64,000 nucleotides of DNA from Theristus sp. LFF4_11 (lineage: Eukaryota > Nematoda > Chromadorea > Monhysterida > Xyalidae): positions 1-64,000 of the forward strand of contig JASANC010002037.1 in NCBI GenBank assembly GCA_030248135.1, written 5' to 3'. Position 1 is the stretch's first letter, and each line of letters begins with the position of its first letter. A program made the position numbers and the translations under genes. Positions 259-56,600 of this stretch are shown in pieces. The notes below the pieces were generated by a model. It was not told the DNA's origin. It saw nothing but the letters and a program-made list of their open reading frames with translations, and did not search any database.

Positions 259-3200
259 TCAATCACCACGAATGAAAACGCGAATCGCAAACGGACTCGG
301 CTCTTGAACGAACTGCCTCGGTGCGGCTTCGAGTAGCTCGCCGGGTGACTTTCGGGCGTCGTCGTCGGTCAATGAAAAGCGAAACTTCTGCAGTAGCGTC
401 GTCAAGAACACGAACAGCTCCATACGAGCCAGTGATTCACCCAGGGGCCAGTTTTGTAAAGCTCAACATAAATATCCAATCATGTTTTGTGGATGTGTGT
501 CGCTCAGTAATATGACCTATTTTTTAAACGTGTCCCACTGAAATGAGGTCATGTGCCGCAAAACATGCACAGAACCTAAACAATTGGTAATACCAAAGCC
601 GAAGGTGCTCATTTATTAGTCGTTTATTATCTGTTCTTTAAGACCTGCGACTCAATGCGGTTGTGGGCATAAAAGGAACCTAGTTTCAATCTTTATTTGG
701 TAATTCAAAATAGCCTAAGTGACCCGGCCTCATTTAGGGGATTCGGACCCCTTTCCCAATTTTGAATTCCCGCGTCGTATATGAAACTGCTTACCCATTT
801 ATGCGCGCATTGGGACGCGGGACCAAAATAAAAGATATTATAGTAGATTTATTCAAACGTGTTCGGACTAAAATGACGTCATTTGCTTTAAAAACGCCCG
901 TTTGTCAAAGTACAGGCACTAAAATGTCAGTTTGGTGTGACTGATTCGACATTCACCATTTGTTTACGAAAAAAATCGGCTAAACGGAAAGTCTGGTTTG
1001 CTGTGAACGGCAAGCGCATATTTGGCGGCACATGACGTCATTTTAAGTGGGACACGTTTAAAAAATAGATCATACTTACAAACCGCTAATTAAAAATAGC
1101 CGTGAGCCATCCAATGTAGGTACCACTTCCTGTCGCACAGCGCAACTCTAAATTGCAGCTTTATAGAACTGGCCCCAGGCATTGGCGTTTGCCGAGACTG
1201 AACGGGACGACACGATCGACCAGTTTCTGGTCCAGTCTCAATCCTCCGCCATTGTTCGAGTTGATGAGAAAACGTTCGGGCCGGAATTCACGCGGTTCAG
1301 GAAAGTAACGCTCGTCATACAACACCGCATAGATGTGCGGGTTCACTGTTGTTCCTGAAGACGTTTTTGCGTGCGTTTGCTTGCTTTTTGTTGTTGCCTG
1401 TCGTAAAATCTTGCACAATATGGCATGTTTTGTTTGTAAACTTCTCGCCTATTTTCTCTCCTAAATTCGATCATTTTATAAATTATAACCTCCACTCAAG
1501 TGACATTTATTAAAATTTTGCTGCTCTGCTCACCTAACACAAAAGTCCTTCTAAATATGCAAGACCGTACAGTAAATAAATACATCTGTTGGTACTGAAC
1601 ACTTCCATGCGACATCAGCGATGTTCTACTGCACCTTTCGGAATGAAATGCTCGTTCACGTGCACATCAGCGGTTGTCTCGTGAAGAAAGTTGATTGGCA
1701 AGACGTTGGCGACACGTTGCGTCTCGTGCACGCACGCCTGCATGAACGGCATCGAGGCGCGATCGGCCATTGTGCACCGACGGTCACCGCCCAACACACG
1801 GTCGATTTCGGCTGCCGCACGTTCTTGCACCTGTTGTTTTTTCAAATTTCATTCCTTCAAATAAATTGTTGTTTCGCATCATATTGCGAGGATAAAAAAA
1901 CAGAGGATTAGGATTATTCATGGATTTTACTTAAGAGACCGCGCGTCCGGAAACAGGCGGAATATATTTTGTCCCCTGGCAAAAAAAATATTTGGCTCAA
2001 ATTTGGTAGGGAGTTACCTCTAGATGCCACTGAAAAATCCGTATCGTTTTTTTCCCGAGAACGCCTTCTGGTGTGGCGCTACAGGGCTCAAATGTTGGGT
2101 AGGTCGAAAAAAGTGCTTTGTTCGGGGCGTGCGCGACACACACGCGTTGTTAAATGTTGATATGCACGCCTTGCACATGAAAGCGGTATGACTAGCGCTC
2201 GATGGTCAAAAAATGGAATGTTGATATTTTGGGCTGAACCAATGCTACTAAGTGTCCTAAGTAAGTTTACAAAATTTCAGGGCTAAATACCTGTCCTATC
2301 CCGATGAAACCCAACACAATATTTGAGTCGAAATATGATTCCCCCCTCCCGGTATCTGTTGCTTGCAGTCACCGAAAATCGTTGTTTAAAAGAACTAATT
2401 TCTTAAAATTCATGCTGAATTTTTTTACTGACCTCCGATTGGATGGCTAGACAGCGAATCGCCCACAATATTGTTTTGAATGTTGTCTCAGTACCACCAA
2501 CCCATAGGCTGCCTATCGATGCAGCCAACTGCTGCTGGCTGAAACACCGTGAGGTCTTGCGTATAAGCACTGTAAAAAATCTGACATTTTTATCGGCGAT
2601 TATTGATCCTGATCCTTGATCATGAATGAAGCATTGAAAAATTTAATTTTTAGGGACATCCCTTTTAGGAAGGGGTGGGGCTTTTTTGCAATACAGTGTA
2701 ACGAGTTTACGACTGCACGGTAATATGAAGTTCGAAATATTGAAAACATTTCAAACACACAGCCTTGATTTTTTTACCACCGATGTTGTCATGTTTTTGA
2801 CTCGGTGCAACGTAAAAATTTTGATGGACGTGCAACGTACGTGAACGATCCGACAGTTTCATCGTACTTCTTGCGTCTTTCCATTTCCTAAAAAAACATT
2901 TTCTGGCATCAAAGACCGCACAGCGCAGCTCAAAGAGAGGGCTCTGAAAATAAAAGTGCAAAATTAAAAGCAGACTAGCCCGTTCTTGCATGAAAATCGT
3001 TTCTGCATGAATGGAAATGCATGAAAATGTTTTCTAATTGCGTTTTTATTATAGTGAGCTAGCACACAGACCTGCAAATAGGCGACCACGTAGTTGGACG
3101 CCTCCATCTCGGGGCACTGCTTGAGTAGTCGTTCATTTTCGTTGACGTGTCGCTGTATAAGCGCCGTCGCTCGCGCATACCATTCCGTAAAGTGGTCATA

Positions 3201-6200
3201 CGTGAAATGGCCGTACAACGGCACGAAACGCAACATAGGACTGAGGATGGCGACAGTTTTGTGACAAAAACATAAATTTTTTAAAATTTTAAAAGTTATT
3301 TTTTTAAAATTTAAAAATCGCACGTTTAAGTTACGGTATGGTGTGAAGGGGAAATGAACATGGACTGAAAAAAACTGCGGGACGGACCAAAGAGAACGAA
3401 ACAACAAGTGGAGAGGCTGTGGTGGTAATCACTGAAAGCTGATGTACAGAAAGTACGTTTCTTTAAAACTTGTCATCTTTTTCAGCAGAATACAGTGCCC
3501 GCAAACGGATAAAGAACGGAATCGGGCTGGAAGAAGAAGACATATTTAGCAACATGGATTTTTTATTCTATTCCAACCAAACCCGATTATTTATTCCTTT
3601 TTTTATTCCTTCTACATGTACTTCAATTTAAAAGTTTCGCGTGCTGTTTGTTGACGATCAGGGACATACGAGTGAGATCGTTTCGAGACCAGGTAGGTGC
3701 GGCAGATGTGCCCTTTTTTGGCTTGGCGCACAGTTTAGCACATTGACGTTGATTTGTTGCAACATTTGTTGCAACAACAGATTGAAGCACGGGCACGGTG
3801 GTGGCACCTTATTTTTGAACAGGTCTTCGCTGCTCATCTAATGAATAACAATAATCTTATATGTTTTTCTCCGCCAACAACAGTTTTGATTGTGAAGTTC
3901 CAAAAATGAAATGAAACAGCATGGTTTCGTTAATTTAGAAAACATTATTGCACTTCGCGTTGTTGCATATGCCGCAAACCGACGTCGATATGTAAACTGC
4001 CGAACAGAAATCGACGACACTTTTTTTGCAAAAACAAAACAAAACTGTCGCCAGATATCGAGCAGACGCCCGGCACCGCTGGCGAATAACTCCATTGCTT
4101 TCTCGGTCGTTTCTATCATTTCGTCCAGCCGCGAATCTCCCGTCAGCTCGTAGCTGGATAGACAAAAAATACTAGTAAAACTAAAACACTTTCAGGCAAT
4201 TTGGTCCCGACTAAGACAGTTTGTTTATTTTCCGAGACTCGTTCTGTGAATAATTCAAACTTCAAACTGTGATGTTCTCAAAGATTACTTGGAATATACA
4301 ACGTGAAAAAGAATGGAGAACTGTGAACATCTTTCTGTCGAGCAGTCACTTGTAGGGTTGCCACGAAATAGGGCTTCCATGAGACGAGACGAGGCAACCA
4401 TAGTTGCTTGCACACAACGACAACCAGAAATTTAAAGACAATCGAAATAAACATAATACTCATAAACATGAAATACATGTATGTTCTCGGAGAATCAACA
4501 AAGTGTACGGTATGGCCCAATAAATATGGCAGTCTCAATCAAGGCGAGATCAGTCGCAGACTAGGAGTTGCCTTTCTCAAAAACGATAAGATTTCCGCCA
4601 ATCGAGTGTGCAAAGGGAGAAATAATGAACAGAATAGCACGAATTACCAATTAATTTTGAGAAACATGTAAAATTTGACACGCAATTGGGTTCCTGAACA
4701 TCTATTTTTCATTGATTCAAATTTCGCGTGCTCCTTGCACCCTAAAAAAGCTGCCATGTTTAATCGGCCATACTGTTTGTGAGCCCGTTTTTTAGCCTGT
4801 TGAATTGTTTACCATGTACTTTTGAAACAAAAAAGGCTGTCTTACCCAAATTGTTCAAGGATTGTTCAGAACGGTAAATTGTCCATAAATTGCTGGCATT
4901 GTTACAAGGTTTCATTTCAAAAACAAACATTGTCGCAATGAGCTCTTCTCACCTGTGACTGAATATTAATGAGCCAATCAACGAGTCGAGACTTGCTTGC
5001 AGCGGGTAGCGTATTCGTAGCACCGCACTATTGCCGTCATCTCCGTCGTCCGTCTTGCTGCGGATCTCTTCATGGAAATGAACCAGCAGTCGATCAAGGT
5101 GTAAGTTGACCTGACATGAAGTTGAGCCGAAGAGTGATGCGCATATATGACGACGAACACACTCCAATTAGTGACTTGAAGAACAAAATTAACTCTTGTT
5201 TTTCCGTTTGAATGGCTGTGCTTCAGAGGATCGGGCAAAAAATTAGCCCATGTTTTAAAATACGATGGATGAAATTACTGCCTACTCCAAGAAACATTTT
5301 TGCTCTGTTGTTGTAGAAGGTATCGTCGGTGAAAATTGCAAGGGCGAACACTTGCAACCACGTCAAAACCCTGCGAACGTTTAAAATGCCCAATGTTTTT
5401 ACTCCAATAAAGGGTCGGGGCAAAACAATAACCCAATTTTTGAAATGTGTAAAGTTGAAATTTCCCCAGGAAACGTCTTTGATCGATTGTGAAATTGTCG
5501 CAGGTAAAAATTGAAAGTGCGAACACATGGTTTTTCAGAATCCGTTTCAGGTTTCTACGACGCATATAAAGACGTCTGAAAAAAATTTTTCTTGCTACAC
5601 ACCGAGCAACTGTACGTGTATTTTGCCTGTTCTATCCGTGTGCACACAGAAAAACCTTGTAGCTCATGTTGTGCTATCTGTAAGAAACAACGTTGTTTTT
5701 TTTAAAAACGCGCGCACCGGCATGTGTAGTGCGGAACTAATCCACAATACCCTGCGGATGATTCAGTCCTTCGTTGCGCACACATGGTCCACGTACTTCA
5801 CTGCGGCCTGATCATTGGTGGACCACAGAACACAGGCGCGCAGGGGGCGAGCCAGTACCAAAGATGAGGCCCCTAGCACGAAGTTGCGCCCTGTCGGGAG
5901 TGGGAGGTCCCCTGACGCCCCTTAAACCCGGGACCCCCCGTGGGTACTCCCCTCCACCCCCTTCCTGACGCGGCACCCCCTCCCCGTGGGTACCGACCTC
6001 CTCACAAAATGTTCCCAAAATCACAAATGTTTGGTCAATTATAATTTTTTGGTTTCCAGGTCTATCCCATGCACTAAATATGAGGTTATTTAGTCTTACA
6101 AACAACTATATCAGCAATTTTTTTTGAAATTTATAGCGTTTGTCATTGAAAATTTTGCGATAAAATGCGGGTGGGGTGGGGTGCATAAACCGTAAACCCC

Positions 6201-9200
6201 ATTAACCGATTAGCATCCGGTGCACCCTTAACAGGCGACCGGAGTCCCATTTACTCCCACCCCGACAAAAAATTTTGGCACCCCCCACGGGTAGGTAATA
6301 TCTTTTATTTTGGTCCCGCATCTCAATGCGCGCATAGATGTGGAAGCAGTCTCATGCACGACGCGGGAAATCAAAATTGGCAAAAAGATCCGAGTCCCCT
6401 AAATAAGGCCGGGTCACTTAGACTATTCTGAATTACCACATAAAGATTGAAACTAGTTTTCTTTCACGTCCACAATCGCATTGAGTCGCAAGTCTTAAAG
6501 AAAAGATTATACCCCCTACCTAAAAATGTGTGTCATCTTCGGTACTAAGGCGAGCTGTACAATGGTGGAACACCAGCTATGGGCGCCCGCGTTCTGTGGT
6601 CAACCAATGATCAGGCCTCATTGAAGCACGTGGACAATGTGTACGGCAACGGAGGGCTGAATCCGCATTGTGGCAGAATTCCGCACTACACATGATTGGA
6701 CGTTTCGTTCCGTTCGTTTTGTGTGTACGTATCTCGTAAAACAAAACCTGTTGCTCAATGATATTACGGCCGAAGCCGAGGTCACGGAGGACGCTCAACG
6801 CAAATCGCCGGTGCTCCCGCCACAGAGGACCGTTCGCCAGACCGATGCCATAGCAGCCACCATTCATCAGTTGCACAATGTACTGCTCCGGACGACCGCT
6901 GAGCGCTTCACCTGGAATCAGCGCTCTTTTTGAAATAGGTGCACACGGTGCCAATCGCACAATCAAAATTTCATCCAATTCAGCGGAAATTTTTGTTCAA
7001 CTTAGAGTTCAAAGAATTGAATGCAAAATGTTTGAACGGTACTCATGTGCCAGAGAAATGAGAATGTGCGTTTTTGTTTGCTTCACGAACATATGAAGTG
7101 GAATTCGCGCCGCCATTGAATTGACTTGTGGCGGGTTCTTAATCGTGGGACGCGCGGCAGCGCAGTCCCTCAATATTATTTCAGAAAGCTCATTGCGAAT
7201 ATTTTGAAATTTCAATGGACCATAACATTCATGATAAATGACTAAACCAAGAAATGTTATTTGCTGTGCTAAGGTGGCCCGATACCCTATCCATCCAAAC
7301 CAAAAAATTACACATCGGTTGCTTCTGTGATTTTACAGAACAAAAAAACCGAAAAAAAATTCAGGTTGTTGTTGTCGTTGTTGTCGCTGTCGACCGTTTC
7401 GGTGTCCACAAAAATCTAAAGTTGTGTTCAAATTCGAATTCCAAACTGTACGGTATCCTATGTAATCGACCATGCTGCGTCTGATAGGCTAGGTGCCGAA
7501 TTGTGAAAAAACTGTTTTTACCCGTGCCGGGTATAAAAAGTGTGCCCGTTAAGGGGTTTCCTGGTAAAAATCGTTGTTCATGTTTTATATTTCATATTCC
7601 ACGGTATTCATGTAATCGACCATGCTGCGTCTGATAGGCTAAGTGCTGAATTGTGAAACATTGTTTTTTACCTGTGCCGGGGTTGAAAAGGGTGCTGTTT
7701 TTACCCGTGCCTGGTATAAAAAGGGTCCACTGAAGGGTTTTCTTCTGAAAAACGTTGTTCTGATTTCAAATTCCACGGTATCCATGTAATCGACTATTCT
7801 GCGTCTGATAGGCTATAGTTTAGGTGCCAAATAGCAAAAAGCTGATATTAACCCGTGCCTGGGTTGAAAAGGGTTCCCGTAAAGGGTTTCCTCCTAAAAA
7901 ACGTTGTTCTGATTTCAAATTCCACGGTATCCATGTAATCGACTATGCTGCGTCTGATAGGCTAAGTGCCGAATTGTGAAACATTGTTTTTTACCTGTGC
8001 CGGGGTTGAAAAGGGTACTGTTTTTTACCCGTGCCTGGTATAAAAAGGGTCCCCGGAAGGGTTTCCTTTTAAAAAACGTTGTTCTGATTTCAAATTCCAC
8101 GGTATCCATGTAATCGACTATGCTGCGTCTGATAGGCTATAGTTTAGGTGCCAAATAACAAAAAGCGGATATTAACCCGTGCCTGGGTTGACAAGGGTCC
8201 CCGTGAAGGGTTTCATCCTAAAAAAACGTTGTTCTGATTTCAAATTCCACGGTATCCATGTAATCGAATATTTTTCTATCTCTGTCATTCTGAAATAATA
8301 TTTGATCTTTTTCATGCCCTTCGGGCATTTTTCCGAACTTGTGGAAGCATTTCTTAGATTTGGAAGGATTTGCACGGAACTTGACAGTTTCGTGCTTTCT
8401 GTCTGTGATTTGGTTAACAAATTGGTTTCAAAAGGCTTTAAAAGGAGAACATTGATGCGCATTTTTTTAGTACAGTATGGCCGAATAAATGAGGCAGTCC
8501 ATCAAGGCGGGATCAGTCGCAGACTAGGAGTTGTCTTTTTCAAAAATGCCTACATAATTCCCAATCATGTGTGCAAGGGAGAGAGAATGCACAGAACAGC
8601 GCGGATAATCCATTGGTTTTCAAAAACGTGTCAAATTAGGCACGCAGTTTGGTTTCTGAACATCTTTTTTCTTTCATTCAAAATTCGCGCGCTCCTTGAA
8701 CCCTGAAAAAAGCTGCCATGTTTAAACGGTCATACTGTATCAGAGATGAACATCGGCAGCTGCTTATGAAATTACTAGAGAAACGAAAACAAATGTTACC
8801 AGTAAATGGCGGCCGTTCTGCCGGGAAACGGAATGATGATAAAGTTTGTTCTGATTACGTTGTTTCGTTATTTTATTTTATTTGAATTGATTTGTATCAG
8901 TTCATTGTCTGTTCGTGTTCGTAACATCAAAATTTTGAAAAAAAGTTTGAAAAGTAAGTTTGAAGCGTGTAGGGGGCTGTACTGATGAGAAAAACCTAGA
9001 CCTGCCGTGAGTCTACAGCCATAATTTTCGAAACTCACGTTCACCGCTATTCTGGTTGTAATTGGTTTGGTCTTAATGTTTGACAGTTGCCGGTGTCATG
9101 CCATATTTTAACCCCCGCCATATTTTGACCGGGGGGTCCCAATATGGCAATTTGCAACTGCCATAGAATGAATGACCTACCCTGACATAGATACCATATG

Positions 9201-10438
9201 ACCCACCCCCCGAAACTCAGTGTATGGAAGGAGATATGAAGTGACACTTGACCAATGGGGGCTGAACTTCACAAATGAACCATGAAAACGTAAAGTATGC
9301 AATCAGTTTAGCCTTGAGTCGGCAGTTCGAATGTCACGCAGTTTGATAGCAAGCTAAAAATCGTGTTCGGATGAAACTTTGGGTTCGGTAGTCAGTCTCA
9401 TTCATTTCCGCCTCTCTTGAAGAAACAACCGGTCTTATACCTTCTCTGTCTTTGGCCTTTGCAAACTCAGCGCGATCTTTTTTTTAATAAACATAGCGGT
9501 GTCGTGTCGGTGTGTGGGAGCCCTACACTCAGAGCAGGTAGACCGTGATGAGTACCGACCAGCCTTGTTTTATTGACATAATCACACTACGCTACGCTCG
9601 CTGCGCGCGTATCGAAACCCCCCCCTAAACTGTACCATTATTGACGAGCGCCTCGACCAACAGTTTGTAATCGGTGATAACAACGTGCGGACCAGGCATC
9701 CAAAGTGTGAATATGCCGCCATATTGCTTGCCCAACTCGCCGAGCTGCTCAGCTAGTTTGTTGATCTGCATTTTACAGCGTTGAAAACAGCAACACTGAG
9801 AAACACATTGTTTCCTTATTTTTGAAGTCAATTTCATGCAAAAAAATTACCGTTAAGTTTTGTTCGTTAAATACAAACTCTAGTTTTGCCTCCCATTACT
9901 GGAGTGCGAATCTTGCGGCATATTATCGTGTCAGAAAGTTTGTAGGCAATTTGAAGTTTTACGCTCTGACAAAAACAGCACAGCTAAAGCAAAAAAAAAC
10001 GAATCCTCGATGCCGCGGCGCCGGAAATTGGATAGTACCGGTAGCTAGTTTTTTTGCAAAACGTTGCAATAGTTAGGTAATTAATATCAATTTTTTAAGT
10101 TCTGCGACTGAATACGTGTGCAGACGTGAAAAGAAAACTAGTTTCAATCTTTATGCGGCAATTAAAAGTCGTCTAAGTAACTCGACCCTACGTAGGAGAC
10201 TCGGATCTCTTTACCAAATTTGAATTCCCGCGTCCTGCATGCAATTGTTTATCTACCTATGGGCGCATTAAGTTGCAGGACCAAAATAAAAGATATTACA
10301 AACTTGTAACTCCAGTTGGTGTACATTGCCGAGCAATGGCAATGGCAACGGCCCCGTCGGGTACTTGGAACGTCGACTGACAAGTTGGTGCCACAAAAAC
10401 GCAAGAACAACAGCAAGAAGAACAAAAATCAGCAGCAT
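259..10438 (-). CDS. Cytochrome P450 (CYP2 clan), 11 exons, 524 aa
   Basis: Haem-thiolate monooxygenase, expected to be anchored in the ER membrane. Exons in transcript order: 10438-10304, 9765-9636, 6911-6748, 5110-4953, 4153-4046, 3240-3072, 2887-2841, 2538-2433, 1830-1635, 1354-1176, 441-259. Total 1575 nt, all phases consistent. Visible marks: hydrophobic N-terminal anchor followed by the Pro-rich PTGPLPLPLLGN hinge (exon 1); C-helix WREHRR (exon 3); I-helix GGTETT (exon 8; the usual first Ala is Gly); K-helix ExxR as ETQR (exon 9); FRPERF and the haem loop FSLGKRQCLG with its Cys ligand (exon 10); L-helix ESLARMEL and C-terminus (exon 11). Start chosen at the ATG opening the anchor. Ten introns... 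nine are GT-AG; the last (after Cys-Leu) has no GT-AG solution and is a transposable element. Substrate and subfamily cannot be read. An allele broken by insertion is the alternative. Confidence 0.9.
445..1175. mobile_element. MITE-like element acting as the last intron of the P450
   Basis: Inverted termini: plus-strand left end GGGCCAGTTTTGTAAAGCT, right end AGCTTTATAGAACTGGCCC. Flanked by a 3-bp direct repeat CAG at 442-444 and 1176-1178 (CTG in gene sense). It splits the haem-binding region exactly between codons for Cys-Leu and Gly-Glu-Ser-Leu-Ala-Arg. Removing the element plus one CTG restores the reading frame and the conserved P450 sequence. Other MITEs are nested inside it: an element with ends near 511 and 1077 carrying AAACGTGTCCCAC and GTGGGACACGTTT, and inside that a copy of the GACCAAAATAAAAG family (about 640-842). 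Confidence 0.85.
4505..4776. mobile_element. TA-flanked MITE (TACAGTATGGCC family), P450 intron 4
   Basis: Ends TACGGTATGGCC and GGCCATACTGT are inverted. Length and internal sequence match the copies at 8471-8739 and 48666-48944. TA at the outer edges suggests a Tc1/mariner-type TA duplication. No coding capacity. Carries AATAAA just inside the left end. Confidence 0.7.
5811..6520. repeat. Intron 3 of the P450: C-rich stretch plus GACCAAAATAAAAG-family MITE
   Basis: The part near 5880-6290 is C-rich with runs of CCCC and no gene. About 6295-6510 is a MITE carrying TAATATCTTTTATTTTGGTC and ATGCGCGCAT near one end and GATTGAAACTAGTTTTC with CGCATTGAGTCGC near the other. Related copies lie at about 640-842, 10095-10300, 40790-41010 and 57030-57195. 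Confidence 0.5.
7418..8275. repeat. Tandem repeat, unit about 150 bp, in P450 intron 2
   Basis: About five to six imperfect copies of a unit containing TTCCACGGTATCCATGTAAT, then CTGCGTCTGATAGGCTA, then an ACCCGTGCC(T/G)GG box and AAGGGTTTCCT. Copies alternate between slightly different spacer lengths. No coding potential. Confidence 0.8.
8471..8739. mobile_element. TA-flanked MITE (TACAGTATGGCC family), P450 intron 2
   Basis: Ends TACAGTATGGCC and GGTCATACTGTA, same internal sequence as 4505-4776 and 48666-48944. It lies directly beside the 150-bp tandem array. Non-autonomous. Confidence 0.75.
10095..10303. mobile_element. GACCAAAATAAAAG-family MITE abutting exon 1 of the P450
   Basis: Same boxes as the other family members: GTTTCAATCTTTAT, TGAATTCCCGCGTC, GGGCGCATTAAG and GGACCAAAATAAAAGATATTA. 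Its end reaches the exon-1 splice donor (minus-strand GTTTGTAATATC), so the element edge and the intron edge nearly coincide. Confidence 0.5.
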
Positions 10439-15786: not shown

Positions 15787-18700
15787 ATGTGTGACAACAA
15801 AGTGGAAGAAGTACGAACAAGCGATGGCGAAGACAGCAGTCCGTGGATTCCCGGCGTGCTAGGCCAAGAAACCAAGAGACAGGCAATGTTGAGAAAGGCT
15901 GAAAAACTGGTGCTGTAAGTTGAAAATGACCAGCTGTATTTGGTATGTTTTTAATTTTTTTATTTTTTGAAAAGACTGTGAAAAAATTCATGTTTTTATT
16001 TTTATTGAATTAACAAAATTAAAAAAAATCAGCTCACAAAATGGGTCGCGGCTGAGAAGCGTGAGAAAGAAGCGTTGGAAAAATTAGACGCAGAAACAAA
16101 GAGGTACTTGTACAAGTTGTTTCTAAGAAATTATTGTGACTAGCCAATTGACCCGTGCCTACGGCACGGTTAGCTGATAATACAATTATTATTTTTGAAT
16201 GGATTTTGGCTTTTTCAACCGTGCTAAAATGCATTGCATTTTGATTTTGAGCTGCTTTAGTCGTTCGCGTTCAAATGATCAAAAACAATCTTCTGATCCG
16301 GAACACAATCTTTACTGCATTCTCTTTTAAAGTTAAAAACAATCTTTTTAAATCACCAATGGTTAATTGCTGTTCCCGTTAAAAATATGTAAAACGATTT
16401 TAAAGTTAGTTGAATTGAAACGACAAAAAGTAACATTTTATAAAAATCGTTTTTGAATGTAATGTAATTTTAATTTTGAAATTTTGGTTTTGAAATTGAC
16501 ACATTTCTAATTAAACCCGCGTGTTAAAAACAAATTTAAAATGCGAAGTTTATAATTTTGCTGACATGTTTTTTACCCGTTCACCCTGCTCCAAGCCAAT
16601 CCTTTTTTGTACAGTGACAATACAAAAAAGTTAACAAAAAATGTAAAAAAATGACGTTTAAATAAAAAAACATTTAAAAAAACTGTTTTTATACCTTAAC
16701 GTATACCCTAACACATAAGCCAAGCCTTTTCGCAAAGTGAAAATGAACAAATAACTGCTTTGAAAGCCATCTTGCTTTCTAATCAGATTTTTAGTTTATC
16801 ACGCACTTCATTAACAAACCCCGTTTATTTGATTTTGCAGTTAATTTTTTTAGTTGAGTTGTTTAGATAAAACTTTTCTGTTTTTGAAAAAGTCTTAAGC
16901 AATAACTTTTCAACATTTTTCTGTTTTTGAAAACGTTCTCATGCAATAACTGTTTAACCAAATGATAATGAAAAATATTGTCTTGAAAGCAAAGTGCAAT
17001 GTGCACTTTCAATTTCGATGTCGTTTTGCAACCTGATTAAAAAAACAATTGCAATGATTCTTCACAGTTGGTTTTCTTTCATCTTTCGCTTTCGGTCAGT
17101 TTGAACAGCAACAGTTGCCATTAATTGTCGATCGTACTTTTCAACATTTTTCTGTTTTTGAAAACGTTCTCATGCAATAACTGTTTAACCAAATGATAAT
17201 GAAAAATATTGTCTTGAAAGCAAAGTGCAATGTGCACTTTCAATTTCGATGTCGTTTTGCAACCTGATTAAAAAAAACAATTGCAATGATTCTTCATAGT
17301 TGGTTTTCTTTCATCTTTCGCTTTCGGTCAGTTTGAACAGCAACAGTTGCCATTAATTGTCGATCGTATGTTAAGGCGCTGTCGCGGATGACCAAAGGGT
17401 ATCATGATGACTGCGCAGTACAGAGTAACGTTTTTGAGAAAATGATTTGCAGTACAGAGTAACGTTTTTGAGAAAATGATTTGCATTATTAATAGTAGGT
17501 TAAGAAATTGAGATTTAGCTGTTTTAAATGGCAAAAATAAGCGCCAATTCAAATTGCAAAAAAGTGACACGGACACCACTATTATCTTAGTATATATACT
17601 AGCCAATGGACCCGAGCTTAATCAATGCCAAGCTTTTTGGTGAAGTGGCATTGAATTTAAAAGAAAAAACAGTAACGTTTACAGAATAACCAATCTGACG
17701 AAAATTTACCTTGTGCTGCCGTGAAGCCGCCTACATTACAATATTTTTTAATGTATTTAAATAAATAAAAAATTCGAAGTTTATGATTTTGCTATTTTTA
17801 CCCGTTCACCGTAACCTAAGGCAAGCCTTTTTGTACGTAAAGTAAAATTGAATAAAAAAATGTAAAAATTAACGTTTTTTCAATTACTCGGTTTAAAATG
17901 CTAATGCTTCTTTTACCCGTTTACCGTAACATAAGCGAAGCCTTTTCTGTAAAGTGAAAATTCGAAGTTTATGATTTTGCTATTTTTACCCTTTCACCCT
18001 AACCTAAGTCAAGCCTTTTTGTTAGTAAAGTAAAGCTGAATAAAAAGTATAAAAATGTACGTTTTTTCAATTACCCTTTTTAAAAAGCTAATGTTTCAAT
18101 TACCCGTTTATCCTAACATAAGCGAAGCCTTTTTTGTAAAGTGAAAATGCGAAGTTTATGATTTTGCTATTTTTACCCGTTCACCCCAACCTAAGTCAAG
18201 CCTTTTTTGTAAGTGAAGTAAGATCGAATAAAAAGTATAAAAATTAACGTTTTTTCAATTACCCGTTTTAAAAAGCTAAAGTTTCTTTTACCCGTTTACC
18301 CTGACATAAGCGAAGCCTTTTTTGTAAAAACTGCGAAGTTTATGATTTTGCTATTTTTACCCGTTCACCCTAACCTAAGTCAAGCCTTTTTGTAAGTGAA
18401 GTAAGATCGATTTTACCCGTTTACCTAAGCCAAGCCTTTTTTGTAAAGTGAAAATGCTAAGTTTATGATTTTGCTATTTTTACCTGTTCATCCTAACCTA
18501 AGTCAAGCCTTTTTGTAAGTGAAGTATGTCCGAATAAAAAGTATAAAAATTAACGTTTTTTAATTACCCGTTTTAAAAAGCGAATGCTTCTTTTACCCGC
18601 TTACCCTAACATAAGCCAAGCCGTTTTTGCAGAGTGAAAATGCGAAGTTTATAATTTTGCTATTTTTGCTTGTTCACCCTAACCTAAGTCAAACCGTTTT

Positions 18701-21700
18701 GTAAGTGAAGTAAAAATAAAAATATAAAAAACAACGTTTTTTTGATTACACGTTTCAAAAAGCTAATGCTTCTTTTACCCGCTTACCCTAACATAAGCCA
18801 AGCCTTTCTTGTAAAGTGAAAATGAATAGCAGAAACAAAAAAGTGACGTTTTTAAGTCTCGTTTTACAGTAATTGTTCTTTTTACCCGTTTACTCTAACA
18901 TAACCCAAGCCTTTTGCAAAATGGAAATGAATGGTAAATATAGATACCATAGCGACCCAACTAAAAACTAACTTTTTTGAAAGACATGAACAGCAACAAT
19001 TGCCGTTTGCCCATCGTACGTTACGTTGAAATTATCGCTCATAACCGTGGAGTATCAATTTGAAAAGAGTAGTATCATGATGACTTTCAGCTATGAAGAG
19101 CGGCGCTTTGTGTAAACAATTTCAAGTGATATCAAAAATAGATAAAGATTGAGATTGAGATGAAGCTTTCTTAAATGGCAAAAATAGCAAAAAATGGGCG
19201 CCAATTCAAAAGTGTGACGGACAGACAGACAAATTGTAAATTTAGTAGTAATAGATATAATATATATAATATATATATATAGACTAGCAAATTGACCCGT
19301 GCCTACGGCCCGGGTAAGGAATGTTTGCAATTTTGTTAATGTAAGAGTGCACCCGTGGATATTAATTTGCTACATTTATTTGCTTCTATTTTCCTGAAAT
19401 TGGAAACTATTTCAGTTAGAAACGATTTTGAATCATTTTTTCATACCTATTAAACTCGTTGATACCGAAAATTGATTGGAGCAAGTTGTTTCCATTTTAT
19501 TTTCATCTCGAACCCCCCCCCCCCCGCCTGATTCTTAAACACCCAAAAAAATCTTTGTTTTCAAAAGCTTTCAAACTCGATTTCGATTCTACGTCATTTT
19601 TATAATCCTGTTTCGGTAATGTCCAATCATGTCAGTCATAACTAACATGATTTAGTAACCGTTGTTAATTGGCTGCGTAGACTGTTTGGCTAATAACCTA
19701 TACCAATGATTTCACCATCGTTCAGTTTTAATGTTTTAATCGTTTTTTTTTCAAAAACACTGTTTTGCTATTTTGCATAATGTTCTTTGATCAGCAACTC
19801 AATCAAGTCGTTGCAGTTCAAATATTTAAAAGCAACCTTTGTCAATGATCAATTGCCGTTCCCATTAAAAATATTAAAAGAAATTTTGTAGTTAATTGAA
19901 TGGAAAAGACAAAAATGTAACGTTTTATAATACTCGTTTTTGAAAGTCATTTTTATAACCCTGTTTTGCTAATTTCCAACCTTGTTGTCCATCATAACTA
20001 ACTTGATTGGCTGTGCAGACATGTTTCAATCAACAAAATATTGTTTTGCTATTTTGCATAATGTTTGATCAGCAACTCAATCAACTGTCATTCCAGTTCA
20101 AATAATTAAAAGCAACCTAACGATAACGATCAATTGCCGTTTCCCGTTCAAAATATGAATTTTTTTGAAGTTATTTGAATGAAAAAGACAAAAAAGTAAC
20201 GTTTTATGATGCAGGAATCGTTTTTGAAAGCGGCACATTTTTAATGAAACCCACGTATTGAAAACAAACTGAAATTCGAAGTTTACAATGTTGCTGCGGA
20301 GTTTTTCTTTTGCTGCCAGTCTTTTTTTGTACAGTGAAAGAGACGTTATTTTTTAATACCCACTTAAACCATTGTTTTTACCCGTTTACCTTATCTGCTA
20401 ATCCTTTTTGTAAAGTGAAAATGAAGGAGAAAACAAAAAACAACACCCATTTAAATAACCATGCAGTTTTAATTTTCCGCTTTTTTATTTGGCACTTTTT
20501 TATTTAAACATTGAAAAAAATGTCAAACTTCCAAATTTCAAATTTCCAAATAAACGCTTTAAAAGCCATTTCACTTTTGCTTTCTAACAGTCGGAGCATT
20601 TTAGGTAATCACGCATTTCATTAAAAGTCTGTTTTTTATTTCGCTGTTAATTTTTAGGCAACATAAGTTGACTTCTTTAAATATAACTTTTGTGTTTCAG
20701 AAGAAGCCAGTTCGAAGCAATAAATATCTAACTCTTACATAAGCCGAAACTTTTCAACCAAATAATAATAAAAATGTGTTCTTGAAAGCAAAGTGCAATG
20801 TGCAAATGCAATGCCGATGTCGATGTCGTTTTGCAATCTGATTTTGCATTTCAAAAACAAACGCATAACAATCTTCGTAGCTGTTTTGTTTCAAATTTCG
20901 CTTTCGGTCATCAAGTTTTGAATAGCAACAATCGCCAGTATTTGTCAATCGTATGTAAGGCTGTCGCTGATGACCAAAGAGTATCATGATGACTTCGCAG
21001 TGAAGAGTGACGTTCTTGAAAAAATAATTGGCATTGATATTAAGTAAAGAGGTTTGAGTTTTTTTTAAATAGCAAAAATGGGCGCCAATTCAAATTGCAA
21101 AAAAGTGCCACGCCATGCAGCTACTATCTTAGTATTATAGATAGAAGATAGATAGACTAGCCAATTGACCCGAGCGTATGTGGCTTAATCAATGCCAAGC
21201 CTTTTTGGTGAAGTAGCATTGAATTAAAAAGAAAAAAACAGTAACGTTTACTGAATAACCAATCTGAAAAAAATTTACTTTGTGCTGCCGTGAAGCCGCC
21301 TACAATACAATATTTTTTATTGTATTTAAATGAATAAAAAATGCGAAGTTTATGAGTTTGTTATTTTTACCCATTCACCCTAACCTAAGGCAAGCCTTTT
21401 TGTATGTGAAGTAAGATTGAATAAAAAACATAAAAATTAACGTTTTTTAATTACCCGTTTAAAAAAGCTAATGCTTCATTTACCCGTTTACCTTAGCCAA
21501 CCCTTTTTTGTAAAGTGAAAATGCGAAGTTTATGATTTTGCTATTTTTACCCGTTCACCCTGACCGTCAAGCCTTTTTGTAAGTTAAGTAAGATTGAATA
21601 AAAAATTTAAAAATTAACGTTTTATTCAATTACCCGTTTTAAAAAATTTTTTTTTCCGAAACAAGCCTTTTTTGTAAAGTGAAAATGAATAGAAGAAACA

Positions 21701-24700
21701 AAAAAATTAACGTTTTATTCAATTTTGCAGTCTTTGTTTTTCTTCCCACCATAACAAAGTTGTATGGTAAAGGGGAGGTGGTGTTACCAACAAGTTTTTT
21801 AAATGAAGTAAAATTGATAAAAATATAAAAATTAACGGTTTTTTTATGCGTTTTAATAAGATAATCTTCTTTTACCCGTTCACCCTAACATAAGTCAAGC
21901 CTTTTTTGTAAAGTGAAGTAAAATTGAATAGAAAAACAAAAACAGTAACGTTTTTAATTTACCCGTTTTAAAAACTAATGCTTCTTTTACCCGTTTACCC
22001 TAACATAAGCCAAGCATCTTTTATAAAGCGAAAATGCGAGGTTTGTGATTTTGCTATTTTTACCCGTTCACCGTAACCTAAGTCAAGCCTTTTTGTAAGT
22101 GAAGTAAAATTGAATAAAAATATAAAAATTAACGTTTTTTTAATTACCCGTTTTAAAAAGCTTATGCTTTTTACCCGTTTACCTAAGCCAAGCCTTTTTT
22201 GTAAAGTGAAAATGAATAGAAGAAACAAAAAAGTGACGTTTTTAAGTTTCGTTTTGCAGTCATTGCTTCTTTTTACCCGTTTACCCTAACATAACCCAAG
22301 CCTTTTGCAAAGTGAAAATGAATGGTAAATACCATTGCGACCCAATTGAAAATATCTTACTTTTTTCAAAGACGGTTTTGTCACATCTTTCGCAGTCGCT
22401 CGTCAAGTTTTGAGTAGCAACAATTGCTATTTGCCAACTGTAGCCATAACCGTAGAGTATCAACTTGAAAAGAGTATCATGATGACTTTCAGCTATGAAG
22501 AGCGGCGTTTTGATTAAACAATTTGAAGTGATATTAAAAATAGATAAAGATTGAGATTGAGATTGAGATAATGCTTTCTTAAATAGCAAAAATGGGCGCC
22601 AATTCAAAAGTGTGACGGACAGACAAATTGTAAATTTAGTAGTAGTAGTTAAACAGCGTTAAAAACTCAGCTTGTCGAAAAGTTTGCGAATTATGCTTCA
22701 ACAACTGTTTTTTTCAGAGCACGGGGGCTCGAAAATTACCTGGATAATGCGGAAAAAAAATCGACGAATACAAAGAGCAACTCTAAGACGAAAAGGTAAA
22801 TGAAAAAACGTAGATGGATTTTTTTTGTTTGCCTACTCATGGTCTCATTACCGATTTCGCCAATTTCCACGGCCGATTCACCCGAAATCGTCACGATTTC
22901 GGTATCTAGAATTGCTCACATAAAACAACTAATCCAAAATCCGTGATCAGCGCACTGAATTACCTTGGAAAACACCCTTTTCTTGTTGTTCACTTCTGAA
23001 CCGATTTCGCCTATTTCCACGGCCGATTCGCCCGAAATCGTCACGATTCAGTATCTAGAGTTGCTCACATTAAAAACTAATCCAAAATACGTAATCAGCG
23101 CATTGAATTACCCCGGTCTACACCAGTTTCTAATTTTTTGTTTTTGGACCGATTTCGCCCATTTCCACGGCCGATTCGCCCGAAATCGTCACGATTCAGT
23201 ATGTAGCGTTGCTCACATAAGAAAACTAACCCGAAATCCGTGATCAGCGCATTGAATTACCCCGCAATACACCACTTTCTCATTTTTTGTTTTTGAACCG
23301 ATTTCGCCAATTTCCACGGGCGATTTGCCCGAAATCGTCACGACTTTGGTTATTTAACAGCTATTCCTTTGATTTTTTTAAAAATAAAGGTCAAATTCAA
23401 ACTCTCCGTTGTTGGTTACCCCTAGAAACTTTTTTACTTGTCAAATAACGGTTTGTTTCACGCGCAGAAATCGCAAATACACTTCAAAATAAGCCTTTTT
23501 CGTAATTTTGTACAAACAAGCTAAATTTTGAGCCTTGGGAAGCATCGGAGAAAAAAATGAATGCGAAATTTGAAAATCCCAAAGATTTTTACCCTAGAAA
23601 ATGTTTTTCTCATAACAGTCAGAATTTTCTTTATATCACTGAAACTGCGTACACATTTGATGACATTGCCGAAAATAAGGGGTAAACAAGAATAATTTTT
23701 TTCACTTTCAGAATTGATAAAATACGCACACAGCGTGTGTAGAAGATCACCACGAAAAAATTTCTCGTGCACACAGTGTATCTGTGGATTATCTGCCTGT
23801 GTGTCGCAGAAAAAATTCTCAACTCCTTTTATGTTCACATAGCGAGGCAAAGTAAGTTAGGAATTTACGCGCGAGCGACAGACGGGCCATATTATGCCCG
23901 CATCCGCTGTCCGCTCCGCTCCCGCTTCGCTCGCGAATGGGCATGATTACTCCTACATGGTAGCTCTGCAAAGTGTCAGAGCAAACAGCACACAATGCCT
24001 TTGCCAGGACAACCAACTGTACATAAATATTTTTTTTGAATGGGTTGCCCAGTCGCCATGTGGAATGTTTGAAAACGGCAATATTAATATGTTGTTTTTT
24101 TTGTTTTTCTGAGGTGGAGGTATTAAATAAACGAGTGGTTGCCCTTTTTTGTGGTGTTTCCAAATCGTAAGCAAGTCTGCAGTTTTTTTTCGTAGCATAA
24201 CATTGTTACAGTTCAAACATAAAGAAAGATTTGTGTCAAACGACGAAATGAGACAAAAACCGTAGCTCCGAGGCAAATCAGAAATACGAATACCAGTCAA
24301 AGCAAGAGGGTTGACCAGAAAACAACGTACAAAAGACAGTTCAGAACTCGGAACAAAAAAAACAACAGCTGTGACCTTCATCAGATCATACACAGCAACA
24401 CGAACTGAAGAAAAAACCAAGACGTGTTTCTTTTGGATGAATGTGAATTTCCAGCTCCCTTTTCATGCCAAAAAGAAAGGGTTGAAAACTGCGAAATTCA
24501 GATTTTTTTTATTCAACAGCTCAAAATGCATTTTTTGTTTGACGACGACGACGACGTCTTTGCTTAATTTTTGCGTGTGAACTGAAAGACAAAAGCCTGA
24601 AATGAGTGCGCTGCGTAGCCAGCTGAAGTGGGTTTCATTCCTAGCTGACCGATCGACATGCGTCTGCAATTAAAAAAAATGCGGCCCGACTTCGCGGACG

Positions 24701-28388: not shown

Positions 28389-31300
28389 ATGTCATTTCGA
28401 GGCAGAGGTGGTGGTGCCGGTGGCCGAGGTCGCGGTGGTGGTGGCCGCGGCGGGGGAGGTAGAGGAGGCGGCGGCGGTTTCAGAGGAGGCCAGTATTTCT
28501 CTTCTGTGGTTTTGGTTCTGTAAAAAATAGTTTTAATTGTAAAAAGTCATCTGCCCATTCGTTTGCATCGACTGTTTTTTGCTTGCTTTCATTGATGCAT
28601 TATTGCATTCACCAATTTCATCAATAATCTTGCATTTCTTTTGTTCGTTTGTTTTGCATAATGGAAGTTTTGTGAATGTGTTGATGTGAACTGGCCGTGG
28701 TGAGGCTTACAAATAAACTTGCTTGATTGATTGATAATCTCACAGCAGACTAGAGATGTAAGGGTCAAAAAAAATTTTTTTTTTTAATTTTTTTTTTAAA
28801 AAAAAGTAAAAAAAAATGAGCATTTTTTATTATTTTTTTTATTAAAAATTTTTGAAATTTTTTCTTTAATGTGCCCTGAAAATGCCGTTTTTGGCATAAT
28901 TTTTCGAAAGTTCAACAAAAATTTTCTTTGACTTTACCTTGTCACTTAGTCTTCAACGCTGCAGGTGGTATTCTGGATTGATTTATCGACTGTTTTCAGC
29001 CTTGGTGAGTGATGATCGACTCGCGCATTGAAGTACTTGAGCGTCGCAAAGGCTAGTTCAACAAATTCCGATGTCGCTAAGGTGAGATAGAAGCAGAGAA
29101 CTCACATTTACGCATCGTTTTTCAGGATCTCGAAAGGTGGAAATTGCACTGTCTGCCACTGCAAGCGTAACTTCGTTGGTTGCTCGTTGCTGTTTCGCCT
29201 CGTGTCGTCAGCGTGATCACACCGGTTTGTTGTGGAACTTGTTTCCATGTTATTTGAGGTGAATTGAGAGGCAAAACACGAGACGTGATGTCGTCGGTGG
29301 GAAAATGGGGTCGCCGAAACCAAGTCTGAAATTTTCACCCTCCTCCCATATGAGTGGGGGTCATATGGTAAGTCGGTGGCTCCTCAGATGGTGATATTCG
29401 GACTCCCTGAATAATTCTGAACAACTTTCATTTAAAAAAAAAATTTAAAAAAAAAATTTAAAAAAAAAATAGAAAATTTTTTTTTCTTGACATCTCTACA
29501 GCAGACCGAACGAGTTGCCCAGAAAATACCAACAACGACACGTCAAGAAAACTTCATGTTCAGTGCAGGTGGCGGACGTGGACGTGGCGGCCGCGGTGGT
29601 GGCGGCGGTCGTGGCGGCTTCCAACGGCAGTACGACAGCGGCCCGCCGGAGCATGTCGTTGGTGAGAGAGTTTACATCGCGTTTCCCGGTTAAACAAATC
29701 GACGTCGATCCGTTGCAACGTGTTAAGGCCCGTTTTGGACGATTTTTGAACGTGTCTCAATTGTAACGTCTAGTGGAGCAATTGTTTTGCAGCCGAGTAC
29801 ACTGTGAAACAAAGTCATGTCACAGTTTCTCGCAAACAGTTTTTCTAGTTCAAAGGATGCATCTGCGGATGTGACATTCCGATGGTATCGGGATGTATAA
29901 GGTCGGCTAGGTCCAGCGTACGAGATCCACTCAGAATCTAGTTGTCATTTTTTGCCGCACACGATTGATCTAAATTGGAACAGTTTTCAACTGGTTCGCA
30001 GATCTCGGCTACTTCACGCACACCTGCGAGGATGATTTGGTGTGCAAATGCACCACGGAAAAGGTGCCCTATTTCAATGCACCCGTGTATCTCGAGAACA
30101 AAGAGCAAATCGGAAAAGTGGACGAAATTTTTGGATCGCTCAGGGATCATGTTGGTCTGAATTTTTCACGTTTACACTTTCATTGGCGTTTTGTTTTCGA
30201 ACACTTGTTTGTTTTTTGAATGAAATCCTTTTCAGTGTATCTCCGTGAAACTAGGAAACGACATGAAGGCATCGTCGTTCAAAGAAAACGTCAAGGTTCG
30301 CAAGTTCTCAATGTTGCGTTTACTGAGTTTTCCATTATTTATTTCACGTGTTCAGCCATTTACAATCGTACAAATGAATTGCAGTCGAACTCAAAATTAT
30401 AGGCAATCAGCTGATTGGTTGGTTGGTGATCACGTGCTGCATGCTTTCTGTGCTGGCATTGCTGTGGGCGGTGAAGTCCGTTCCACACAGAAAGCATACA
30501 TCATGATACATCACGTGGTCACCAACCAATTAGAGCTCCACTTGCTGATTTTCAGTTATTTATCGACCCTGCAAAATTGTTGCCGTTGGAGCGTTTTCTC
30601 CCGAAGCCCCCTGGCCAAAAAGGGCCGAAACGAGGGGGCCGCGGCGCTCCAGGGGGTCGGGGTGGTCGAGGCGGTGACAGGGGTACGTTGATTGTTTGTG
30701 ATGATGTGTGAATTTTAAGCCCATTGAAATGTTTGACCTTATGAATCTAACTCAGGCGGCTCAGTGGTGTCGCACGACTGAGCTGTTATGTAAAATTGGT
30801 GCCATGATGCCAAACGCAGGCTTCAAAACTAAGTCTCCCTCCACATATTCGCAGCTTCCGAACAAACAAAATAAAACACGAGCACGTCAATTTACTGTCA
30901 GGTGGCCGAGGGGGTCGCGGCGGTGGCCGTGATTCGGGTGGCCGAGGAGGCTCCACTCGTGGCGGCGCGTTTGGCGGCCGCGGTGGTGGCGGCACGCAAG
31001 GCGGGAGACCGGGCGCCTGCTTCAAATGCGGCGATGAGGGGCACATGTCTCGAGAGTGCCCGCAAGGTTGGCATGGCACTGTTTTTGAAGGCCCCGCTCA
31101 TACGGACGTTCGCGTATGCGCTCTTCACATCAGCTCCGGTGTATTATTAGCATAATACCGTCTATGACGACGTGCGATTGACGTACGTCAGTATGAACAG
31201 CTATTCAGCAAAACTCTGCTGTTTTTGCTGGCGGAGAAAAACCTCAGTTGTCCAACTGATGAAGCTGATGAGTTTGAATTTTAGTTCACAGGGTGTTTTC

Positions 31301-53600: not shown

Positions 53601-56600
53601 TCTCTGCATTTCGGCCCGGCCAACATGCGATACAGAAGAGCGGGTGGTTTGGCTGCCTCAACACAGTGATGTGCCCCCCTCCTAAACACAGCCATTCGTG
53701 TCGCTCAGCACGTCACGGACACCGTGGAAGACATCGACGAACGCGTGCGCACGCTGTCGTCGCTCGTCGCGTGTCTCTCGGGCGTTCATGAATGCACGGC
53801 GTTGTTGTACGTGGAGATCGCGCAGTTGCTGCATAACGCGTCCGTTGTGATGATCGACGAGCAGCATCGCCAGTATAAACGGGCGCTGCGCTTTGCGCAC
53901 GAGGCACACCACCCGCTGGAAGAGGCCCGTCGGCTTGGTCGATCGTTCGACGGCGTTCGCGAGCGCGTCGCAGAGCTGGAGGTGAGTGCGTGAATGCGGC
54001 GCTTCTCGCTGTTTGGAATGTCGTTTCGACACGTGAATTGCACGGAAGCCTCATTCATGCATCTTGAAGCGCTGCCAGGCGTCACGTTCACGCGCAGCGT
54101 GTCACTTCGCTACGCATTCATGAAACAACAACAACACATTCATGACAGTGACGTGTGCGCTTCAGCGCGCGCGAGTGCACGATTGGCGCATTCATCGGCC
54201 GAAACACATTCACAAGTCGCTTCGAACTGTTTCATTGTCAAAGCAGCTCAGATCACTGCCCCCCCCCGGGTCAGAGCGGGACTTAGAAGAGACCGGGACA
54301 CCGATCGAGCCGATCGGGGGCAAGGGAAATTTCAGCAGTCTCCATTTACCCGCAGCAACAAATCACTTCAATGTAACCACAAAATTGCAACCTGCTTTTC
54401 GTTCATGGTCACTTCCAGCAAGTTTCAAGTTTCAAGAAGTTCTTCGGGTTTTCAATTAGTTTTCTTCCAGGAAGATCTGTACAACCAGCGGTGCGCGGCC
54501 GAGGCTCTCCAAGACATGCACACTGCTGACAAGCTGCTGCACACGCTGGTCATGGAGCACGAACACGTCGACTACGAGCAAGTTTGGAATGTCGTCGATT
54601 TGTATCGGTCGGTTGTTTTGTCCAGCCACCAGGGACAACTTTCTTTGGAGTCCACATGAAAGTGGAAAAAACACCATACAGATGCAGGGTACAATCGTGG
54701 TGCAGAAGCCAACCTGCTGAGCACTGCTCCTACGTGACACGAATCCAAAAAGCAATTGATTTTGGAAATCCAAAAACCCACCGGTTAAATTCAAAATCCC
54801 TGCAGTGACGTGGAGTCAGTTGGCTTCGGAACGAAAGAAACATTCCTTTTTTCGACGCAACATAGGTCATCCATTGGGCATTACACCAGGAAGGTTTTTT
54901 GCAACTCAAAATACTGTGCCACCCACACACGCACAGCACGAGCCGCCTCAAGTTGAACGAACGTCACATCGAGACGGAGGCAATCGTGTACAGCAAGCTC
55001 GGTCACGTGTACCACGCCGTGATACCGGGCATGCGTGACCGCGCGAAGACGTGCTTCATGCGCTCGTTGCAACTGGCGCACTCACTCCATCCGCGTGTCT
55101 TCACCAGCGAACAGTGGTTCAAGGTGCGCACACCTTAAGCGCAAACCATTCGTGCGTTCGTTTCGTTCACAGACCTTCAGATACACAGCTCACGTGTGAT
55201 CACCAACCAATCAGCTGATTGCCTACAATTTACGAGTTCGACACTGTTACAGGAGTGCACAAAAGTGCTGGAGATCTACCAGCGTGGACTGCTGTCCGAA
55301 GAGGAGTATCAACGGCAACAAGAGCGCGCCGCCGTCTTGGAGGAGATACGAGACAAGATCGAACTGCTGAAACGACACGAGAACGACAGCGCGCAGGGGC
55401 CAGTTTTTTTATTGAAGCTTAGCAGGCCAGTGCAGTGCTACGCCGCTGAGCGAACCCCTGAAACATCGCATAGCAAAACTCCGAATTATCGGTAGACTGT
55501 ACTAAAGCAAGCCGCTGATGTTGTCAGACGTTGCCTTAACCAGCCGAACCAAACCAAAGAACGTAATAATCAAAACCATTGCATTTTGAGCGAGATTCAG
55601 TTCAGACAGGAGCGTGTGCACGTGCGCTAGTGGATGATGAGCATGAGCATGCCGATGCCGCGTGCGTTTTAGTAACGAAGCTTTATGAAATTAATTAATT
55701 ATCAGCTGATTGGTTAATGATCACGTGATGCATGCTTTCTGTGCGGACATTGATGTGGAGGTGGAGTCTGTCTTGCTGTGAATGCATGCATCACTCACGT
55801 GATCACCAACCTATCAGCTGCTTGCCTATCATTACACATTATGCCTGACACTTACAATGTGTCGAATAAAATCAATCAATCAATCATTTTTACAGTTGGA
55901 CCGTGTTTTTTCAAGCATACTGATTCACCACTGACTGCTCTTCAAACGTGATCTGAGCAACCTGAAATGTGTTGATTCATAAATTTCATTCAGGCGCTCA
56001 GTGGTGTAGCACCGTTCGACTCCTCCTCCTAAGTTTCCTAAAAAAACTGGCCCCAGGCATTCTTGAAGTTCATCTACGAGACGTGGCCGCCGAAGATCGA
56101 ACCGTCCAAGATGCCGAACATAAAACCGAAAGAGATCGCGGAGCCGAAGCTGGCGAAAAAGGCACTGATGAAAGCACTGTTGCACTACCACCCGGACAAA
56201 CAGACTGCGCAGACGCACGGTGCACAGTGGAATGTGCTCTGTGAGGAGATCACCAAGGTGCTCAATCGACAGTACGCCGCGTTCAAGGGCGTCGACTGAC
56301 TGCGAAGCAGCCTTTCTGATTGTCCCCCGTTTTCTGAGACGGACAGACCAGCTCTTGTTGTGTCCAGCGTTTGTCATAGCATGAAATTTTCTTCTCGATC
56401 AACACGATTCAGACATAGTGATTTTGACAGGACTTGCTTGTCGATACAAGCGCAGCGCCTTTTCAAACCAGAGTTTGTTAACTTTGTTCAGTCTGTTATT
56501 TCGGTTGTTTCTTGCTTTTTCTGTTCATTTGATACTGATTTGAAAAAAAGTACATGTATTGGCGACAAATGACGGCTTCTTTTTAAATGAACCAAAATTT

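Follow-up and report, generated by a model that had tools for sequence, protein, structure and literature searches.

A MITE family with CWG target repeats as a putative source of introns in a nematode-like genome, and its AG-less copy in the haem loop of a cytochrome P450 gene

The window, that is, the whole 64-kb stretch of DNA analysed here, corresponds to contig C1304 of a 159.4-Mb assembly of 3744 contigs, which was the genome searched. A cytochrome P450 gene, rebuilt on the minus strand, occupies positions 259-10438 in 11 coding pieces. In gene order these are 10304..10438 (containing the start), 9636..9765, 6748..6911, 4953..5110, 4046..4153, 3072..3240, 2841..2887, 2433..2538, 1635..1830, 1176..1354 (piece 10, ending ...GKRQCL) and 259..441 (piece 11, beginning GESLARM...). 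When the element described below is left out together with one CTG, the joined coding sequence is 1575 nt long with no inner stop. Its 524-residue product matches Pfam model PF00067 over residues 27-513 (E 1.6e-91), is CYP2-like, and contains the haem Cys motif. A protein search with this product returned 102 matches, the best named ones mostly nematode P450s; the best match spanning the whole query, from Plectus sambesii, shows 37% identity. By this similarity the host looks nematode-like, though the matches of the TPR/DnaJ-like gene described below point to other animals. All nine ordinary introns are GT-AG, as an earlier note on this DNA had stated, and the donor GTTTTG is used twice among them. 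A copy of a repeat designated C, at 10129-10298, stops a few nucleotides short of the start of intron 1, and the repeat thus adjoins a splice site (10129-10303).

Several other features occur in the window. Diverged repeats, about 170-190 nt each, make up an AT-rich block at 17741-22331, which is flanked by near-identical duplicates (12.8-14.5 kb and 22.9-24.4 kb) about 9.85 kb apart. On the plus strand, 29436-32345 encodes five zinc-knuckle-like repeats preceded by a glycine-rich stretch, an arrangement reminiscent of GLH-type germline helicases. Pieces on the minus strand at 59476-60554 resemble an OTU-type deubiquitinase by a reading of the translation. An Rfam search of the 64 kb gave no match.

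The element in the P450 gene, 731 bp long at 445..1175 on the minus strand, lies within the haem-loop codons, between the Cys-Leu and Gly-Glu codons of the haem-binding site. In gene sense its 5' terminal inverted repeat is at 1157..1175 and its 3' terminal inverted repeat at 445..463. The 19-nt arms (GGGCCAGTT[TTG/CTA]TAAAGCT) match at 17 of 19 positions, and the arm pattern occurs 3 times in the window, against 0.11 expected, when up to three mismatches are allowed. The element is flanked by an upstream CTG at 1176..1178, which closes coding piece 10, and by a downstream CTG at 442..444. Its overlap with the GGG/CCC of the element ends allows this direct repeat to be extended to as much as CCTGGG. 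The border in gene sense reads ...CGC CAA TGC CTG / GGGCCAGTTCTA ... AAAACTGGCCC / CTG GGT GAA TCA, and exact removal produces a junction of ...CAATGCCTG to GGTGAATCA. The earlier note's description of a 731-bp element with inverted ends and a CTG direct repeat that splits Cys-Leu from Gly-Glu is borne out throughout.

Nested within the element is a second one, B, at 508..1077, recognized by its TATGAYCTATTTTTTAAACGTGTCCCACT ends and TA flanks. Inside B, at 625..840, lies a copy of repeat C, whose relatives are at 6296-6511 and 10129-10298. This B differs from the B consensus at 3.4% of positions, with three private substitutions and two private indels. The nested repeats described in the earlier note are real, but the age argument drawn from them is weaker than claimed, since nine reference copies of B differ from the consensus by 1.3-3.4%.

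The usual splice dinucleotides are missing from the borders of this copy. A splice-pair scan finds a GT, a possible donor, six nt inside the element (GGGCCA/GTTCTA; 1168..1169, minus strand). GT...AG is absent from every register of the 734-nt excision, and the nearest AG on the downstream side ends 27 nt past the element, so that the note's report of a GT just within the left end and no AG at the right end stands. Among 31 GT-AG, GC-AG or AT-AC pairs tested near the borders, all in frame and free of stops, not one re-creates the haem loop CLGESLAR. The earlier note had overlooked in-phase GT-AG pairs whose acceptor lies in the next exon. The mildest of these joins the GT at 1169-1168 to an AG at 419-418 inside that exon; the haem Cys is kept, eight residues are lost, and CLGESLARMELF becomes CLGPLF. 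For the P450 exon pair the Pfam score falls from 99.8 bits with exact removal to 69.6 bits with this inner AG. The best score at the protein level belongs to exact removal of the element plus one repeat, the outcome that the note had favoured. If the element is not removed, an in-frame TAA follows six codons past the haem Cys. Non-GT-AG introns linked to MITEs reportedly occur in Fritillaria borealis; the P450 gene would resemble that case in having such an intron, but here the element-derived one is the sole departure among otherwise GT-AG introns.

The gene may instead be a disrupted allele, in which the insertion is kept in RNA, translation stops at the TAA, and what is left is a null or decaying gene, possibly a heterozygous one that the assembly has collapsed. 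We regard this as a serious possibility, somewhat short of even odds. The TAA in the reading frame and the failure of all 31 canonical or semi-canonical pairs to restore the loop speak for it, as does the presence of CTG at a border where the six other homology-supported copies described below carry CAG. Set against these are the full 524-codon frame with its nine GT-AG introns intact, and the presence of the later element B inside the first. Coding piece 11, beyond the insertion, is also conserved as well as piece 10 relative to a paralogue at locus L075 (58.6% and 59.4%). That the frame is intact speaks mildly, and not strongly, for continued use of the gene since B arrived, because simulations of an unselected P450 coding sequence at 2-3% divergence, which scored stops only, remained stop-free in 17-31% of runs. 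The lack of frameshifts adds to the case for continued use.

A genome search with the joined P450 exon pair flanking the element gave 35 matches. Of 30 loci examined with a search expression for the haem motif, 26 carry it and four do not; in all 24 motif-bearing loci other than the window gene (20 distinct places) the motif is unbroken. The check proposed in the earlier note, for a copy of this gene lacking the element, turned up none in the assembly, and the next-best DNA match to the last coding piece is 82% identical over 94 nt. Some other P450s are present as near-identical pairs on two contigs, so the assembly separates some alleles, and the missing empty-site copy counts to that extent against a disrupted allele. 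The insertion site is perhaps a collapsed heterozygous site.

The element belongs to a family, here called family A. Used as the sole query, the P450 element's outer left arm matched only itself, and the family was therefore found through its end pattern. With up to one mismatch, the pattern GGGCCAGTTNNNTAAAGCT has 58 matches in the genome, while a reversed-pattern control has one. Preceded by CTG, the end gives 59 matches (control 3), and preceded by CAG, 79 (control 0), or 138 exact matches for the two triplets (CWG) together. Within the window, the end preceded by CWG, one mismatch being allowed, occurs five times versus 0.23 expected, and two family members are present, the P450 element and another at 55397-56053. 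Copies were examined from 30 of the 58 end matches, together with six CWG-end copies in which both ends are visible. This yielded 21 distinct two-ended copies, with duplicates on sister contigs counted once and inverted ends serving as a selection criterion. Identical 3-nt flanks were found in 10 of the 20 distinct copies compared, and all ten are CAG or CTG.

Alignments of at least 200 nt between copies (the three longest listed for each copy, nested B left aside) show 66-80% identity, and three copies had no match in that comparison. Such identities indicate that family A is old, or has been diverse for a long time. A 3-nt target repeat and GGG-type ends are marks of PIF/Harbinger-type MITEs, a group to which family A, with its 3-nt CWG repeat, might belong. 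Literature searches among open-licence papers found no match for a CWG target repeat and no report of the family. At one locus (L019, contig C178, about 1519-1742) two family A ends meet via one CAG, as if a copy had inserted at the border of another.

Homology supports a coding location for seven of the 21 two-ended copies, the P450 one included, and these represent six insertion events. Introners are recognized by related copies at unrelated coding positions of one genome and by transposon ends with a target repeat; these seven copies supply the first feature, and the identical CWG flanks in 10 of 20 copies supply the second. Leaving out the element restores the frame in each of the seven, and the homologous protein is recovered once the element and one repeat are omitted, so that family A looks like an introner. 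The other 14 copies have no homology-supported coding context. Pfam searches on five of them gave no convincing match, and nine were judged by their joined frames.

The second copy in the window, 657 bp on the plus strand at 55397..56053, interrupts the last exon of a TPR/DnaJ-like gene. Homology marks the coding pieces on either side, 55253..55396, which ends ...KRHENDSAQ, and 56057..56299, the last one; the sense repeats are CAG (55394-55396) and CAG (56054-56056). Three homologues (P0103-P0105), from a crinoid (two) and an amphipod, with no nematode among them, continue uninterrupted across the site. So do relatives within the genome at 43-44% identity (contigs C2507 and C980). The DnaJ match of this gene is under the Pfam cut-off.

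Further copies occur in genes of other kinds. One (L094, contig C1977) sits right after the Walker A motif of an ABCA transporter, ...GLLGVNGAGKTTLFQ / MLCSF.... The joined sequence matches Pfam ABC_tran at 6.2e-16 and aligns without gaps to ABCA7/ABCA1 at the join; the open frame that contains the upstream piece is 1040 codons long, and the one that contains the downstream piece 82. Another (L092, contig C102) interrupts a sugar transporter, whose MFS_1 match (6.5e-5) falls short of the Pfam cut-off. Judged by coordinates, 15 of 16 other matches in the genome are ungapped at this join, and one has 9 additional nt and a stop. The repeats here are CTG upstream and CAG downstream, as if an AG had been gained. 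A copy on contig C947 (L095), read on the minus strand, lies just ahead of a TYW2 domain, in a gene that is the single match to its peptide in the genome; the Pfam match (E 4.9e-5) is under the cut-off and covers the downstream side of the join only.

The remaining pair, L029 and L030, are tandem paralogues about 7 kb apart on contig C957 that carry the element at the same codon and share one insertion. A tblastx comparison shows coding sequence conserved on both sides of the element, with 70-86% identity in the aligned blocks that hold element ends as well as coding sequence. The two elements agree fully over their first 11 and last 23 nt, and the interiors cannot be aligned; the ends may therefore have been under constraint since insertion, and parallel insertion or gene conversion would also account for their identity. 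A third paralogue was searched for in the genome and not found. The L030 element carries a B insertion at a different place, apparently independent of the B in the P450 gene.

One further candidate (L020, element 2146-2355, downstream CAG) has a joined frame of 207 residues that by eye resembled an ionotropic receptor. With a Pfam E-value of 0.084, no matching solved structure and no homologue found, it was left out of the count of seven. The length of a joined frame was rejected as proof by itself, since 7.7% of random joins reach the P450 length and 4.6% reach the TPR length. A codon-usage score, trained partly on the P450 itself, placed the TPR, ABCA and P450 joins above the 99th percentile of random joins, with L026 just under. 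It was not used for counting because it missed the sugar transporter and TYW2.

At the downstream border, the three nucleotides that adjoin the element are CAG in the copies within the TPR, ABCA, transporter and TYW2 genes (4 of 4). All six homology-supported copies other than the P450 have CAG at the frame-compatible downstream border, and CTG is found in the P450 only. The sequence after the element is GCAG in L029 and CCACAG in L030, and the offsets from the inverted repeat that keep the frame are 1, 4 and 7 in the former versus 0, 3 and 6 in the latter, with none in common. The position after CAG keeps the frame in both. From this, the downstream border appears to track a spliceosomal AG. 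For family A as a whole it seems to be AG-defined and spliceosomal, a placement that the frame alone does not force.

For the upstream border the options are the exact element end (CAG/GGGCC) and the GT six nt inside (GGGCCA/GTTTT), which always keeps the frame and is present in all eight sense copies folded. Because this GT resembles the P450 gene's own GTTTTG donors and keeps the frame, canonical GT-AG splicing that adds two residues is possible in the other copies. Extended to the P450 gene, this reading would make the whole family a canonical introner with codon gain (GGGCCA/GT...CAG/), adding two residues in most copies, the P450 copy using either TG, which adds PG, or the inner AG. The constancy of the GT and the gene's two GTTTTG donors favour it, as do two published observations: codon-adding introners have been described (PMC9860276), and in 36 human genes TG has been verified to serve as an alternative 3' splice site of the U2 type (PMC2374985). 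It pays a price in protein fit, however, relative to exact removal: ABC_tran falls from 59.7 to 50.7 bits, MFS_1 from 22.4 to 20.3, and the P450 from 99.8 to 91.5 with TG or to the lower value given above with the inner AG. The changed residues would lie in the helix after Walker A and next to the haem loop. We consider this account doubtful. A TG in place of AG would suit the P450 copy, but unlike the human sites, which are alternative 3' sites, the TG here would be the sole one at the border (PMC2374985).

The ends themselves pair strongly. In eight sense copies, the L020 frame included, end pairing is predicted at -24.7 to -37.8 kcal/mol, compared with -3.9 to -9.6 kcal/mol for the nine ordinary P450 introns. 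Inverted ends able to pair are expected of a substrate for SOS splicing, in which a DNA transposon is removed from mRNA, as described in animals (review PMC13247085). The family could thus be excised without GT-AG, with the ends pairing, an endonuclease cutting and RTCB joining. The pairing in all eight copies, and the identity of the L029 and L030 ends around unalignable interiors, are what such a route would leave behind. It accords poorly, however, with a border in L029 and L030 that keeps the frame after CAG and not at a common distance from the inverted repeat, and with the CAG that adjoins the element in the four other exonic copies, which suggests a spliceosomal 3' site. We judge this route improbable. 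The same two observations bear on the earlier note's central claim. A transposon acting as an intron finds support at the level of the family, from copies in conserved genes with frames open on both sides, but the part of the claim by which the ends alone set the cut finds no such support. Given the family's CAG rule, the odds are somewhat against the ends by themselves removing the P450 element.

In introners derived from DNA transposons with terminal inverted repeats, the element provides one of the two splice signals and the target repeat provides the second, and codons are sometimes added (Gozashti et al. 2022, PMC9860276). Family A resembles the introners described there in being a multi-copy element with terminal inverted repeats and short target repeats, present in coding sequence with the frame kept. 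It differs in its 3-nt CWG repeat, its old and diverged copies, and the P450 copy without an AG. It also differs in its nematode-like host, the string "nematod" being absent from that paper's main text. Unlike the substrates of SOS splicing as reviewed (PMC13247085), family A insertions look old and have a downstream border that tracks CAG.

The reading that we prefer, with a probability of about two in three, is that family A is an intron-making MITE (introner) and the P450 copy an AG-less member of it. Under this reading family A would be an old non-autonomous DNA transposon with GGGCCAGTT... ends and a 3-nt CWG target repeat, which makes a new intron where it lands in coding sequence. Its ends would pair within the pre-mRNA, the 5' boundary would fall at the left end or 6 nt within, and the AG within the CAG on the right would serve as the 3' boundary. 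For the P450 copy the insertion site would have been CTG in gene sense, which would leave that copy with paired ends and a GT and deprive it of the AG. It may be taken out at the equivalent CTG boundary (GG/GT...TG), giving a normal or near-normal haem loop; otherwise the P450 gene would be a casualty of its own introner family. As far as sequence can tell, the chances are about even that the element is still removed from RNA, exactly or near-exactly.

A broader proposal is that paired ends, kept in place after insertion, allow exact removal from mRNA even where GT-AG is lacking, as in the P450 haem loop, so that a transposon-excising RNA repair would have become routine intron removal in a nematode lineage. 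We think this unlikely, if still worth stating. The P450 copy, with CTG for CAG and otherwise like its relatives, is a natural test of whether the AG or the paired ends decide removal.

In the sections of a nematode intron survey drawn on here (PMC9169325), introners are named only as an example, and the failure to identify the sources of gained introns is discussed. Family A would be a concrete source of new introns: its ends can be traced, its target repeat is known, copies occupy exons of conserved genes, and two paralogues have an insertion in common. The P450 finding opens onto something larger than the earlier note described, in all likelihood a nematode-like genome with an old MITE family that makes introns.
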